A DNA stretch of 63,256 nt from Candidatus Woesearchaeota archaeon. Its GTDB lineage: Archaea > Nanobdellota > Nanobdellia > Woesearchaeales > DSVV01. A model generated the notes under the pieces. The model was not told where the DNA came from, searched no databases, and saw only the letters and a list, made by a program, of their open reading frames with translations. This document shows positions 3,853 to 17,537 of the stretch, in pieces (position 1 is the stretch's first letter; every line of letters begins with the position of its first letter). Position numbers and translations under genes: made by a program. Location of the stretch: the NCBI GenBank assembly GCA_016192995.1, contig JACPTB010000003.1, positions 1-63,256 on the forward strand. Reading direction: 5' to 3'.

Positions 3853-3912
3853 CGTTAGGTTTAAAAAACTTTTAACAAAACATTCTTAAACACAAGCCAA
3901 TGATCAGCAATA

Positions 3913-4764
3913 ATGCCTAAATTTCAATTTATGTTAGCGCCTTTAGAAAATACCTCTGATAATGCTTTCCGCAGTTTATGTTATAAGTATGGAGCTGATG
4001 TTACGTTTACTGAAATGGCAAGAATAGATGCCTTGGCAAGAGGGAATAAAAGCACATTGGATAAAATTGCTATTATTAATAATGTGCCAACATGGATTCA
4101 GATTGTTGGCGCAAAAGAGCAGAAATTAACTGAGTTTCTTCGGCAATACCAGCCGCAAAAAGGGTTTCTTGGTTTTAACTTTAATCTTGGTTGTCCAAGC
4201 CCTGATATTATTAATTGTGGTTTAGGGTCTGCATTGATAAAAAGAGTGTCTAAAGTAAGAACACTATTAAAAACTGTTGAAGATTTTGGGTTTAGAACAT
4301 CTATCAAAATGCGGCTTGGTTTGCATGATTATGAAAAAGAGAAAAAAGTGTATCTCTATTTGATTAAAGATGTCGATACTGATTTTTTTGTTGTTCATCC
4401 GAGGACAGCACAAGAACAGTACGAAACAAAACCTGATGAAACTGTTTATGAAGAATGCGTCGCAACCGGTAAAATAATTATTGCTAATGGCGATATTAAT
4501 ACCATTGAAAAAGTTAACGAGTTAAAAGCACTAGGTTTGCACGGTGTTATGATTGGAAGAAATGCCGTGTATGATCCAGCTATTTTTAATAGATTAAAAG
4601 GATTAGGATCTCCCTCTTTTGAAGATCTCAAGAAAGAATATCTTAAGCTTTGCAATCATTTTCATACATCTGACAAATACAAAACCAATGTCTTGGGAAG
4701 AATTGGCAAAACAGAGCTTACTGATAAAACTAAAGCACAATTGATGAGATTAGTAAGGGGGTAA
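3913..4764 (+). CDS. dus: tRNA-dihydrouridine synthase
   Basis: The 283-residue FMN enzyme reduces uridines in tRNA to dihydrouridine. A TIM-barrel is evident with the FMN and family signatures in order: MLAPLENTSDNAFR at residue 7, TFTEM, the catalytic-cysteine motif NLGCPSP (Cys94), KMRLG, FVVHPRT, IIANGDI and VMIGR. The length is slightly short for the family but includes the full barrel and part of the C-terminal helical domain. It is a single-gene unit with foldback elements on both sides. Which tRNA position it modifies cannot be told. Confidence 0.9.
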   Translation: MPKFQFMLAPLENTSDNAFRSLCYKYGADVTFTEMARIDALARGNKSTLDKIAIINNVPTWIQIVGAKEQKLTEFLRQYQPQKGFLGFNFNLGCPSPDIINCGLGSALIKRVSKVRTLLKTVEDFGFRTSIKMRLGLHDYEKEKKVYLYLIKDVDTDFFVVHPRTAQEQYETKPDETVYEECVATGKIIIANGDINTIEKVNELKALGLHGVMIGRNAVYDPAIFNRLKGLGSPSFEDLKKEYLKLCNHFHTSDKYKTNVLGRIGKTELTDKTKAQLMRLVRG

Positions 4765-13529: not shown

Positions 13530-13770
13530 GGTTTATACCCCCAATATCTTGCCATAATGGCATGATTATATGCATAATTTATATGTGTAGTTTACACTTA
13601 AGTGCTATTATGGAGTAGTCACATGATTTATAAAGTTTTGGATGGATAGGTACTGTTTTAGTCATTAGTTAGTTGTTAAGTATAGTAGAGTTAGAAAAAC
13701 GTAACATTTTTATATTTCCACTGATTTTAGTGTGTTATGTGCAATAATTGTATTGTATGGAGGAAATAAT

Positions 13771-14007
13771 ATGCCCACGTTAACACTATCAATTACTGAA
13801 GATCTAAAGAGAGAAATGGAATTATTGCCAGAATTAAATTGGTCAGAAATAGCTCGGAATGCAATTGTAAAAAAGGCTGCTGAATATAAATTATTTAAAT
13901 CAATTGTAGCAAAATCAAAGCTCACTGAACATGATGCATTAGAACTAGGGAGAAAAGTAAACGAAGGGCTGTACAAAGAATATAAAAAAAAATTGAAAGA
14001 GATGTAA
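13771..14007 (+). CDS. VapB-type antitoxin
   Basis: A 78-residue protein with an N-terminal strand TLTLSI and helices around NWSEIARNA, followed by a toxin-binding tail (LTEHDALELGRKV). It matches the antitoxin at 51.7-51.9 kb in the same positions (TLSI, W-S-[ED]-IAR, LTE-DA, G-K). The ATG at 13771 is chosen because GGAGG stands eight bases upstream. The toxin gene begins five bases after the stop, as in vapBC operons. It would bind operator DNA and neutralise the toxin. Confidence 0.75.
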   Translation: MPTLTLSITEDLKREMELLPELNWSEIARNAIVKKAAEYKLFKSIVAKSKLTEHDALELGRKVNEGLYKEYKKKLKEM

Positions 14008-14011
14008 AGCA

Positions 14012-14422
14012 ATGCTCCTTGTTGTTGATGCTAACATAGTATTCTCATCTCTTATTGCAGGAAATATCATCGATCTCTTCTTATCAGAAAAATTACAATT
14101 AATTGCACCTGAACTATTATTTGTTGAAATGAGAAAACATAAAGAGGATATAAAAGCAAAATCCCATTTTTCCGAACAAGAATTTGAAATTATTCTTTCT
14201 GTATTAGAAAAGCGAATTAAGATAATTCCATTGCAAGAGTTCATAATGAACATGACTAAAGCAGAGCAATTATTAAAAGAACATGTAAAAGATGCACCGT
14301 ACATAGCTCTTGCATTGAGATATAATTGTGCAGTTTGGTCTTACGAAAAATTATTCAAAAACATAAGTGGAATACAATCATTAACAACTAAAGAAATTGC
14401 TGAAATAATAAGAAATTACTGA
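14012..14422 (+). CDS. vapC: PIN-domain toxin (VapC-like)
   Basis: The 136-residue PIN-fold ribonuclease shows the acidic residues expected for metal binding: VVDANIVFS (Asp6), FVEMRKH (Glu) and VKDAPYIALAL (Asp). The last acidic motif reads WSYEKLF rather than the common W-[ST]-x-D. VapC proteins cleave tRNA or rRNA when released from VapB. It is co-transcribed with the antitoxin gene just upstream. A decayed Fic gene lies immediately downstream. Confidence 0.8.
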   Translation: MLLVVDANIVFSSLIAGNIIDLFLSEKLQLIAPELLFVEMRKHKEDIKAKSHFSEQEFEIILSVLEKRIKIIPLQEFIMNMTKAEQLLKEHVKDAPYIALALRYNCAVWSYEKLFKNISGIQSLTTKEIAEIIRNY

Positions 14423-15624: not shown

Positions 15625-16227
15625 ATGTCGCTTAATAGTGTTGAAGATTACTGGAACGTTGATGCCCCTAATTGGATTACGGGTTCCCATCCTTTGCTTG
15701 CTGACTCAGGTATAAGAGCAAAAGCAATCATTGATGTTTTACAAGATTTTAGATATTTAAGAGCAGCAAGAGATTTACTCGATATTGGTTCTGGAAGTGG
15801 AGGTGTTTGTGCATATCTTGAAGATATTGACCCCTATTTTGTTATTGCTATGGATGCAGCGCCTGAAATGTTAAAAAGAAATCCTTCGAGAAGAAAAGTG
15901 CTGACAGATGCTAATCAAGAACTTCCTTTTGCTGACGGGTGTGTTGATGGAGTTACGCAATTCTTTTTAAACAGATATTTACATAATCCTTGTCAAAACA
16001 CTCGGGAAATTGGAAGAGTAACAAAATCAGGCGGAGTAATTTTAGTTATGGACCACACTTATTTAGGACATTCCCTTGAAGTTAAAGAATTCGATCCACA
16101 ACAAGTAAAACAATCACTTGAAGCAATATGTAGAAGTGTTCATGTAATGCAAGTTTGTCCAGTATTTTCAGATCCTGAAAGTTTCTATCATCGCGGACCA
16201 ATTTATCTTGTTGTTGGCATTAAATAG
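15625..16227 (+). CDS. Class I SAM-dependent methyltransferase
   Basis: This 200-residue protein has the Rossmann methyltransferase motifs: LLDIGSGSGGV (motif I, residue 49), VIAMDAAPEM (acidic loop binding the SAM ribose), ELPFADGCVDGV (motif post-II) and REIGRVTKSGGVILVMD (motif post-III/IV). It resembles the Methyltransf_11 group, and the substrate is not evident. A structured-RNA gene with its own promoter starts about 90 bases downstream. Confidence 0.85.
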   Translation: MSLNSVEDYWNVDAPNWITGSHPLLADSGIRAKAIIDVLQDFRYLRAARDLLDIGSGSGGVCAYLEDIDPYFVIAMDAAPEMLKRNPSRRKVLTDANQELPFADGCVDGVTQFFLNRYLHNPCQNTREIGRVTKSGGVILVMDHTYLGHSLEVKEFDPQQVKQSLEAICRSVHVMQVCPVFSDPESFYHRGPIYLVVGIK

Positions 16228-16288
16228 TTTACAAGTACTACCAAGTTCACTTCGTAGTAGTCAGAAAAGATTAAATAGAAGTTACTTC

Positions 16289-16295
16289 TATAAAA
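16289..16295 (+). promoter_or_regulatory. TATA box for the structured RNA
   Basis: TATAAAA lies 22-28 bases before the first base of the closing helix of the RNA at 16317. That is the expected archaeal TATA-to-start distance. No open reading frame begins here. Confidence 0.55.
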
Positions 16296-16316
16296 GCCGC
16301 CCGTATCATAAGAAAA

Positions 16317-16546
16317 GTTGGCAAGACTTTTCGGTTGTCCTGGAAAGGATGTTACCATAACAACCTCTGTCAAGTGTCTAGCTATAATTAGGATGCCTGG
16401 ACTATAACTCATCCTAAGAAATCTGCACTTGTTAAGTTAATTTGTGGAGCGAATAAGATAACCTTTCAAACAAGCTGGTAGGTTAAGATTCAGATCAGTA
16501 GTTGTTTACGGCACTTATTCACCGAGTCCAGATGCCAGCTTTTTTT
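16317..16546 (+). ncRNA. Structured RNA candidate, about 230 nt
   Basis: The region is non-coding and dense in helices. GTTGGCA (16317-16323) pairs with TGCCAGC (16533-16539) to close the molecule, and seven T follow. Other helices are GGTTGT/ACAACC (16333/16360), CAAGTG/CACTTG (16371/16426), TTAGGATG/CATCCTAA (16388/16410), GAATAAG/CTTATTC (16451/16514) and AACCT/AGGTT (16460/16480). The loop CTGGACT (16397-16403) can pair with AGTCCAG (16525-16531) as a pseudoknot. I could not find the conserved blocks of RNase P RNA or SRP RNA, though a divergent or reduced form of either is possible. Confidence 0.6.
16540..16546 (+). terminator. Poly-U terminator of the structured RNA
   Basis: Seven T directly follow the 3' strand of the closing helix. 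Archaeal RNA polymerase commonly stops at such T runs. Confidence 0.5.
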
Positions 16547-16585
16547 ATTATCCTCATTAAATCCTTATTAAAGGGTGGAAAGACT

Positions 16586-16789
16586 ATGGTAAGAACAAGA
16601 AGAAAAGGTTCGTCAAAGCGTACAATAAATAAAAAGATATCACCTCGAAAAACTAAATACAAGGGAAGGCGTCCCAGCAATAAAAGCAAAGCATCAAAAG
16701 TGCAAAAACTGATAAAATTAGCAAAAGCTCGACTGCGAAGCAAAAAAGCGCGCGGAAAGAGCAGAGCTAAGAAGAAAAAAAGAATATGA
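16586..16789 (+). CDS. Very basic small nucleic-acid-binding protein
   Basis: This 67-residue protein is about half Lys and Arg, with Ser and Gly between (for example RTRRKGSSKRT, then SKKARGKSRAKKKK). Such composition fits a DNA- or RNA-packaging protein like an H1-tail-type chromatin protein; it has no folded domain that I can see. AAGGGTGG precedes the ATG at 16586, which is chosen over a longer upstream frame that runs through the structured RNA. It is the first gene after that RNA on the same strand. Confidence 0.65.
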   Translation: MVRTRRKGSSKRTINKKISPRKTKYKGRRPSNKSKASKVQKLIKLAKARLRSKKARGKSRAKKKKRI

Positions 16790-16873
16790 CTTTTGTTGTT
16801 TATACTCTTTATTACAGCCTATAAGCAGAAGTATCTTTAGAAGTAAAAATAGTAAAATCATAATAATCTGAAG

Positions 16874-17028
16874 GTACGTATTAAGTCTTCTTATAGGTTT
16901 TAGCGCCGGTTCAGCTTTTTAAGTGGATTTTGATTGGATTTTTCTCTCTGGAACCTCGAAAAATCCTCAAAGTGAATTTAAGAAGAGCTTCACAAAAGTA
17001 GGCGCTAAAACCCAGACTTATTACGTAC
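16874..17028. mobile_element. Foldback element, GTACG arms
   Basis: The arms GTACGTATTAAGTCT and AGACTTATTACGTAC have one mismatch. Inner arms GGTTTTAGCGCC/GGCGCTAAAACC and the core hairpin GGATTTTTC/GAAAAATCC follow, with loop TCTCTGGAACCTC, a local rearrangement of the usual loop. No clear flanking duplication is seen. It lies between two convergent genes. Confidence 0.78.
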
Positions 17029-17042
17029 CTCTAAAAATTTTA

Positions 17043-17537
17043 TTATGAGGAGGTTGTTGTAAACTCATTATCAAAAATATGAAATAATCTTTTTGCTTCT
17101 GCTTTTTCTTCTTTATGAATTACTTTAGCAACAAAAATAGTGTGATCTTCGCACGCAACTTCATGAACAACTTCGCATTCTAAATAACCAAGAGCGCCAG
17201 CGATTTTGCAGCAATCCATGGCACTGGCGTTAAGCTTGAACAATTTTGCTTCTTTGAATTTATCAACATGCAGCCCTGAATGCCTTCCGCAAAACACTGC
17301 AGCATCTTTCATAGTATCAGGAATAAAATTAATCACAAATATGTTTGATTCCTTGATGAGTTGATGGGTGAATGTTTTTTTGTTAATGGCAATTGCATAC
17401 ATAAAGTGTTCAATTGAGCAGGGCATATGCCAGTCCACAGGAATGACATTATCAATTATTTTTTCTTTGCCGTATATTTGCGTTTTTCCCCTCGTTGTTA
17501 CCAGAATTGTTTGCTGCGGCCCAAGCAATGTTCTCAT
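17043..17537 (-). CDS. Flavin-reductase-like FMN-binding protein
   Basis: This 164-residue split-barrel protein fits the flavin reductase domain: the VPVDWHMPCSIEHFMYAIAI strand region, then TFTHQLIKESNIFVINFIP (phosphate-loop region) and a GLHVDKF segment, with a central LGYLECEVVHEV strand. Family members bind FMN and either reduce flavin with NAD(P)H or serve as flavoprotein partners. It follows the membrane-protein gene by nine bases on the same strand, so the two are probably co-transcribed. Confidence 0.78.
   Translation of the reverse strand: MRTLLGPQQTILVTTRGKTQIYGKEKIIDNVIPVDWHMPCSIEHFMYAIAINKKTFTHQLIKESNIFVINFIPDTMKDAAVFCGRHSGLHVDKFKEAKLFKLNASAMDCCKIAGALGYLECEVVHEVACEDHTIFVAKVIHKEEKAEAKRLFHIFDNEFTTTSS

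Follow-up and report, generated by a model that had tools for sequence, protein, structure and literature searches.

The 63,256-nt stretch of DNA analysed here, called the window throughout (contig JACPTB010000003.1 of the Candidatus Woesearchaeota assembly GCA_016192995.1), carries a structured RNA of about 230 nt from an RNA family of DPANN archaea that has apparently not been described before. Members of the family share a covarying fold with a pseudoknot, and they nearly always stand ahead of a gene for a small basic protein that is under purifying selection and co-occurs with the RNA. The RNA and the protein probably work together as an RNA-protein particle (RNP), and we assign a probability of roughly 55% to the reading that this is a DPANN-specific RNP, with the RNA as its core and the basic protein made from the same locus. 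The site had been described as an unassigned structured RNA in a first-pass annotation of the sequence, and that description is supported.

The source contig (C3) is part of a 1.62-Mb genome (G000) that is 99.6% complete. The RNA region (16289-16546) is flanked by a methyltransferase gene (15625-16227) and by the ORF for the basic protein, which is followed by a flavin-reductase gene (17043-17537); the RNA, its signals and the basic ORF all lie on the forward strand. A TATA box, TATAAAA, occupies 16289-16295, 35 nt upstream of a conserved GGAY position, with an alternative TATA-like string, TTAAATA, at 16271-16277. TATA-like strings occur within 55 nt upstream of 88 of 102 homologues, compared with a mean of 40.0 and a maximum of 53 after shuffling. 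The predicted 5' end of the RNA was deduced from the TATA spacing. The covariance-model match extends over 16313-16545, with scores of 236.2 bits for model R1 and 223.3 bits for the more sensitive model R2; the locus was a training member of both models, and the first relatives came from a plain DNA search. Behind the RNA, a Shine-Dalgarno-like GGGTGG (16573-16578), following the pattern of the family, stands 7 nt 5' of the ATG of a 67-aa ORF (16586-16789), whose product contains 48% Lys and Arg and the motif GRRPSNKSKASKVQKLIKLAK.

The neighbourhood contains further features. A PIN-domain protein (PIN_2, E 2e-24) is encoded some 2 kb upstream of the RNA, directly after a small ORF (13732-14422 for the two) that appears VapB-like by eye and has no Pfam match; the two are a probable toxin-antitoxin-type pair. 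Nested inverted repeats span 16872-17030, in the interval that separates the basic ORF from the flavin-reductase gene, with outer arms at 16872-16888 and 17014-17030 (17 nt, 94%) and inner arms at 16896-16907 and 17001-17012 (12 nt, 100%), and could be a small palindromic element. A GTRGTNAGATAA-like string recurs immediately 5' of the TATA box at many RNA copies (e.g. L030, L039, L105 and L109), and is perhaps a BRE or a stable-RNA promoter element of these archaea.

A search with all 4227 models of Rfam 15, proposed as a check in the first-pass annotation, gave no match anywhere in the window at gathering score, and permissive thresholds around the RNA returned only eukaryotic families at chance level (E 0.8-5.6). 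That annotation had also found no RNase P or SRP signature blocks, in agreement with the Rfam models of both, which have no match at the locus. Both RNAs are present elsewhere in the same genome, RNase P RNA (RF00373) at C2:180427-180736 with 133.6 bits and SRP RNA (RF01857) at C7:35684-35954 with 125.6 bits. The two models were also run over 99 genomes, and at 12 homologous loci searched with Rfam at E up to 0.5, no family overlapped the RNA. On the Rfam results at both thresholds and on the RNase P and SRP models, a known RNA family was rejected. A divergent RNase P, SRP, 5S, tmRNA or known riboswitch RNA missed by Rfam would be compatible with the length and complexity observed, which fall within the range of RNase P and SRP RNA, and with a multi-helix fold with closing helix like that of RF00373 and RF01857; the lack of Rfam matches and the separate RNase P and SRP RNA genes already disfavour this reading, which is the least probable of those considered. 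Searches of open-licence full text in PMC found no description of this RNA.

When 99 related genomes were searched at the DNA level, 8 gave a match, which in most cases covered the bulk of the RNA at 74-77% identity. The match in G033 spans only 39 bases and is probably due to chance, while G065 contains two copies, the second at 68% identity. R2 was likewise positive in 8 of the 99 relatives, adding G017 to the DNA search. R1, built from an alignment of eight copies (A1), detected the RNA in 40 genomes among 352 from the order, in 54 of a phylum-level sample of 371, and in 18 of the 146 searched from the phylum to which a Micrarchaeota record belongs. An exact 21-base pattern, searched across about 85,000 named species, identified 75 loci, and R1 confirmed the RNA at every one, five being cut by a contig end. 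The record titles name Woesearchaeota, Pacearchaeota, Nanoarchaeota, Micrarchaeota, Diapherotrites and Aenigmatarchaeota, with a few giving only 'archaeon', and the RNA is conserved across Nanoarchaeota, Micrarchaeota, Diapherotrites and Aenigmatarchaeota. The sole bacterial title (L178, MHOT01000007.1, 'Staskawiczbacteria'), where the RNA is an edge fragment, apparently belongs to a misbinned archaeal contig, since its SRP54 and ArgRS look archaeal by eye; bacterial spread was not adopted on this one case.

Occurrence is patchy even within the family of the source genome (4 of 11 genomes), and the RNA is not generally essential, given its presence in only 54 of 371 genomes and 8 of 99 relatives. 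Some genomes have two to four copies, and tandem copies are found in G368 and G379. Head-to-tail RNA pairs (L098, 3837-4296; L099, about 3885-4339) lie a few bases apart or give slightly overlapping model matches, and are followed by one protein gene. No neighbour besides the basic gene is conserved, the largest neighbour cluster covering 7 of 113 loci, and a conserved operon extending past the basic gene was rejected on this count. An RNA tree was poorly resolved, with 19 of 99 inner branches starred, and its labelling placed 75 rows under one odd label; for these reasons, and because the Micrarchaeota require six changes, no inference on inheritance was drawn from it. Viral contigs gave no matches to one exact pattern that catches only 48 of the 81 first-found copies, which is weak evidence against a viral origin. 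The patchy, multi-copy and tandem occurrence in changing neighbourhoods would suit the RNA of a mobile or selfish element that moves from one DPANN lineage to another and uses the basic protein to aid packaging or insertion. We consider this very improbable, as no transposase or integrase was seen by eye among the clustered neighbours, the exact pattern is absent from viral contigs, and the RNA is too constrained for a passive passenger.

The single-sequence fold is modestly better than those of shuffled sequences (z -2.37, with 2 of 200 shuffles equally good), and at this z the helices are not trustworthy without relatives. RNAalifold analysis of A1 gave 63 pairs, and in 26 of these both sides change in a compensatory manner. 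A larger alignment, A5, comprises 102 of the 113 RNA matches, omitting 11 that are cut at contig ends, truncated or very divergent (L044, L074, L075, L076, L077, L095, L096, L097, L178, L205 and L208), among which L095-L097 score weakly (46-52 bits with R1, 53-62 bits with R2). Across the 102 rows, a 54-pair structure including the pseudoknot has 94.4% of cells paired versus 83.0% in shuffles and two-sided change in 663 cells versus 165.6, neither value being reached in any of 500 shuffles, a control that ignores sequence kinship. Slid-partner controls are free of that weakness, and reduce pairing to 33-44%. The covariation score is 0.408, compared with 0.188 for shuffles and 0.064-0.091 for slid partners. 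Two-sided change is seen in 44 of the 54 pairs, so that covariation with homologues, a second check proposed in the first-pass annotation, strongly supports the fold; the closing helix outlined there is P1, and internal helices P2-P9 are present.

The closing helix P1 has 14 bp at the locus (16310-16323 with 16533-16546), its 3' strand absorbing the seven T at 16540-16546. Its sequence is very variable; at least 6 bp form in 69 of 102 homologues versus 29.9 with shuffled partners, and at least 8 bp in 44 of 102 versus 7.0, while in part of the family f62 the helix appears short or lost by eye. P2 (16331-16335, 5' strand UCGGU, with 16521-16525) has 98.8% of cells paired and covariation in one of five pairs, and the hairpin P3 (16338-16349), whose tetraloop GGAA we take to be of the GNRA type, has 98.0% of cells paired and covariation in two of four. 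Every pair covaries in P4 (16355-16359 with 16443-16447, five pairs), P5 (16371-16377 with 16425-16431, seven pairs), P6 (16389-16395 with 16410-16416, seven pairs), whose loop holds a pseudoknot strand, and P9 (16475-16478 with 16495-16498, four pairs), which encloses the conserved AGGUUAAG loop. The corresponding counts are six of seven for P7 (16451-16457 with 16514-16520) and seven of nine for P8 (16462-16472 with 16503-16511). The most constant positions in the 102-row alignment include the long unpaired stretches GAUAACC, AGGUUAAG, CCUCUG and ACUAUAACUC, as would be expected for tertiary contacts or binding sites. Inspection of the RNA by eye recognised no ribozyme core, tetraloop receptor or guide region. 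The interval 16300-16560 is free of tandem repeats and contains one 11-nt pair 106 nt apart.

In the pseudoknot, PK1, CUGGACU in the P6 loop (16397-16403) pairs with AGUCCAG at the 3' end (16525-16531), with all seven pairs formed at the locus. This 7-bp loop-to-3' pairing had been proposed from the single sequence, and in the 102 RNAs it is 99.0% paired, with two-sided change in five of six counted pairs. All 18 rows with a non-common sequence retain 6-7 of the 7 pairs, and the changed forms include AAGGGCU/AGCCCUU, CCAGACU/AGUCUGG and CCUGGCU/AGCCAGG. The GUCC of the PK1 3' strand can also pair with GGAY beside P1 (16324-16327), forming P2a, which is mutually exclusive with PK1. At the locus, three of four P2a pairs are formed; across the alignment P2a is possible in most rows, with a few compensated changes, and in six rows at most two of its four positions pair while PK1 is retained. 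A second pseudoknot, AACC/GGUU, suggested by eye, was dropped because AACC becomes CACC in many rows with no counterpart change in GGUU, and because its CC is part of P8. The locus combines an R1 score of 236.2 bits, a complete PK1 and a 67-aa basic ORF behind the RNA, and so shows all three features that define the family.

The first-pass annotation had noted that a very basic small protein gene follows the RNA, and this extends to the homologues. Among the 113 RNA matches, 6 are cut by a contig end, and a small Lys/Arg-rich ORF follows on the same strand in 103 of the other 107. These 103 comprise 96 core-type and 4 Cys-type ORFs found by script, L111 and L209, which fall outside the motif filter of the script, and L077. 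At one of the 103, the first tandem copy of L098, the ORF is reached only beyond the second RNA copy. L077 (889-1078) is a truncated RNA whose 5' half runs directly into the basic ORF, by a deletion or an assembly fusion. The same protein type is present in Micrarchaeota, Diapherotrites and Aenigmatarchaeota, where 32 further loci gave 3 cut and 29 of 29 others positive.

To assess co-occurrence, a protein profile was built from 57 RNA-adjacent copies and searched in the same 371 genomes as the RNA. All 45 genomes in which the protein was found are RNA-positive, and the 317 RNA-negative genomes gave no match; the P-values for this co-occurrence ignore genome relatedness. Nine RNA-positive genomes had no profile match: four with the Cys-type protein, two with divergent core-type proteins (G219 and G420), one with a cut locus (G099), and two with stand-alone RNA only (G395 and G476). 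In G209, the RNA is split over two contigs, with the protein directly behind. The only protein copy lacking an RNA (G241:C68:12987) comes from a genome with two complete RNA-protein pairs. The near-constant adjacency (103/107) and strict co-occurrence (45/45) support a link between the basic protein and the RNA.

Core-type proteins share [GS]Rx[PA]SxKxKxSKVxKLIKLAK, and proteins of the family are hydrophilic and basic, with lengths of 36-101 aa. The predicted structure of the 67-aa protein contains a single C-terminal helix (35-66) after an unstructured basic N-terminus (mean pLDDT 83.4, pTM 0.43). Searches of Pfam, NCBIfam, PADLOC and PDB gave no relative of the core-type protein; in Pfam and NCBIfam none of five core-type proteins matched, and one of four Cys-type proteins had weak sub-cutoff matches. 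Close protein pairs gave a pooled pS of 0.66 and pN of 0.19, and the basic ORF is therefore a real, conserved coding sequence under purifying selection. Invariant or near-invariant positions number 83 in the RNA (102 sequences) and 10 in the protein (57 sequences). The most divergent RNAs (L072, L073, L096 and L097) are followed by a Cys-type protein, MVCPKLxxGxC...C...Y..KM with a basic tail. A model of this type, A6, found its 4 training genomes and one weak match (G071, E 0.007) among 43 chosen genomes. Since these four RNAs carry the Cys-type protein instead, the RNA stays while the protein is exchanged.

The arrangement would also suit an autoregulatory 5' leader on the mRNA for the basic protein, comparable to ribosomal-protein leaders, in which the protein or another ligand would shift the balance between PK1 and the P1-P2a helix just 5' of the AUG, and so control initiation. 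The RNA is always on the strand of the ORF, mostly 6-121 nt ahead of the start codon. Spacers shorter than 22 nt occur in 33 of 87 cases, and an SD-like 4-mer is present in 5 of these 33 compared with 40 of the 54 longer spacers, although short spacers also offer less space for a chance SD motif. PK1 and P2a compete for the same 3' GUCC, with P2a kept in most sequences and showing a few compensated changes, and in L098 and L099 tandem RNAs stand ahead of a single ORF. As in the archaeal S15, eL15 and L4 ribosomal-protein leaders described in the main text of PMC7247131, a structured RNA lies immediately 5' of the gene for a small basic protein; the DPANN names searched for are absent from that text, which reports poly-U stretches after some S15 leaders.

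Several observations weigh against the leader, and we think it rather unlikely as the full explanation. Unlike in ribosomal-protein leaders, the protein matches no known ribosomal protein, and 4 of 107 RNA copies stand alone, with no basic ORF; all four have a TATA-like string upstream and at least five T after the closing helix, and for two of them (L091 and L092) the next gene looks convergent by eye. The protein almost never occurs without the RNA, whereas leaders are usually dispensable and some shedding would be expected. Sequence conservation is far higher in the RNA than in the protein that a leader would serve, and the six rows with at most two of four P2a pairs keep PK1. The first-pass annotation had ended the RNA in a run of seven T; the run is present at 16540-16546, but it is not a feature of the family, as a T-run of at least five between RNA and start codon is found in 17 of 102 protein-linked copies, made up of 16 of the 100 located by script and L111; L209 has none. 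Poly-T was thus rejected as the family terminator, and a scan of the consensus found no hairpin terminator-like site.

In type III toxin-antitoxin systems the RNA gene stands directly ahead of the protein gene, as at the DPANN locus, and the antitoxin RNAs of ToxIN and CptIN are reported to be pseudoknotted as well. By this analogy, the RNA would neutralise a harmful cationic amphipathic peptide encoded behind it. RNA without protein exists while protein without RNA practically never does, and the two genes behave as an autonomous module in varying contexts, patchy and multi-copy in some genomes. However, the ToxIN and CptIN RNAs are described as repeats and their toxins as endoribonucleases, whereas the DPANN RNA is one unrepeated unit of about 230 nt followed by a helical basic peptide. 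The partner protein has no match to an endoribonuclease toxin, or to any toxin or defence family, in Pfam, NCBIfam or PADLOC, and is predicted to be a single helix; the RNA lacks tandem repeats, and its sequence is strongly conserved from phylum to phylum in contrast to the variable would-be toxin, and viral contigs lack the exact pattern. An RNA-neutralised peptide is accordingly an improbable reading.

The RNP is placed first, the leader second and the RNA-neutralised peptide third, because the RNA is the constant partner, the protein is variable and even exchangeable, and stand-alone copies exist. In the RNP, the TATA promoter would drive an RNA of about 230 nt, presumably co-transcribed with the protein gene. 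The RNA would fold into the closing helix P1/P2, the hairpin P3, a long arm P4-P5-P6 and a second arm P7-P8-P9, with PK1 tying these parts together from the P6 loop to the 3' end. The downstream Lys/Arg-rich protein may bind the RNA during folding, neutralising and stabilising it, and the mature RNA would then be released as the trans-acting, functional core of the particle. A more elaborate version, in which the RNA flips between PK1 and P2a and acts in trans in a DPANN-specific machine with the peptide from the same transcript as its assembly factor, is a possibility that we put forward tentatively. The short spacers, which suit a cis-acting leader, the rarity of T-runs between RNA and ORF, and the patchy spread count against the RNP. 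The RNP and leader readings are mutually compatible, and at the short spacers the RNA must double as an mRNA leader, since the start codon is so close.

Among RNAs with a protein of their own, the bacterial OLE RNA and its partner OapA offer a comparison. OLE is described as 577 nt in one species, with OapA a membrane protein, whereas the DPANN RNA is about 230 nt, archaeal and paired with a hydrophilic basic protein of 36-101 aa; the Rfam OLE model has no match at the locus. Both the RNA family and the protein family are apparently new, though as a type of system the pair may turn out to resemble OLE or a leader. It is rare for a widespread structured RNA to have a protein partner of its own, and the open-licence PMC papers searched yielded no such case from DPANN archaea. 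The covariation-proven fold, the dedicated protein and the stand-alone copies make the question of cis versus trans action directly testable, and a trans-acting RNP would add a new function carried out by RNA to this large group of small archaea, most of which depend on hosts.
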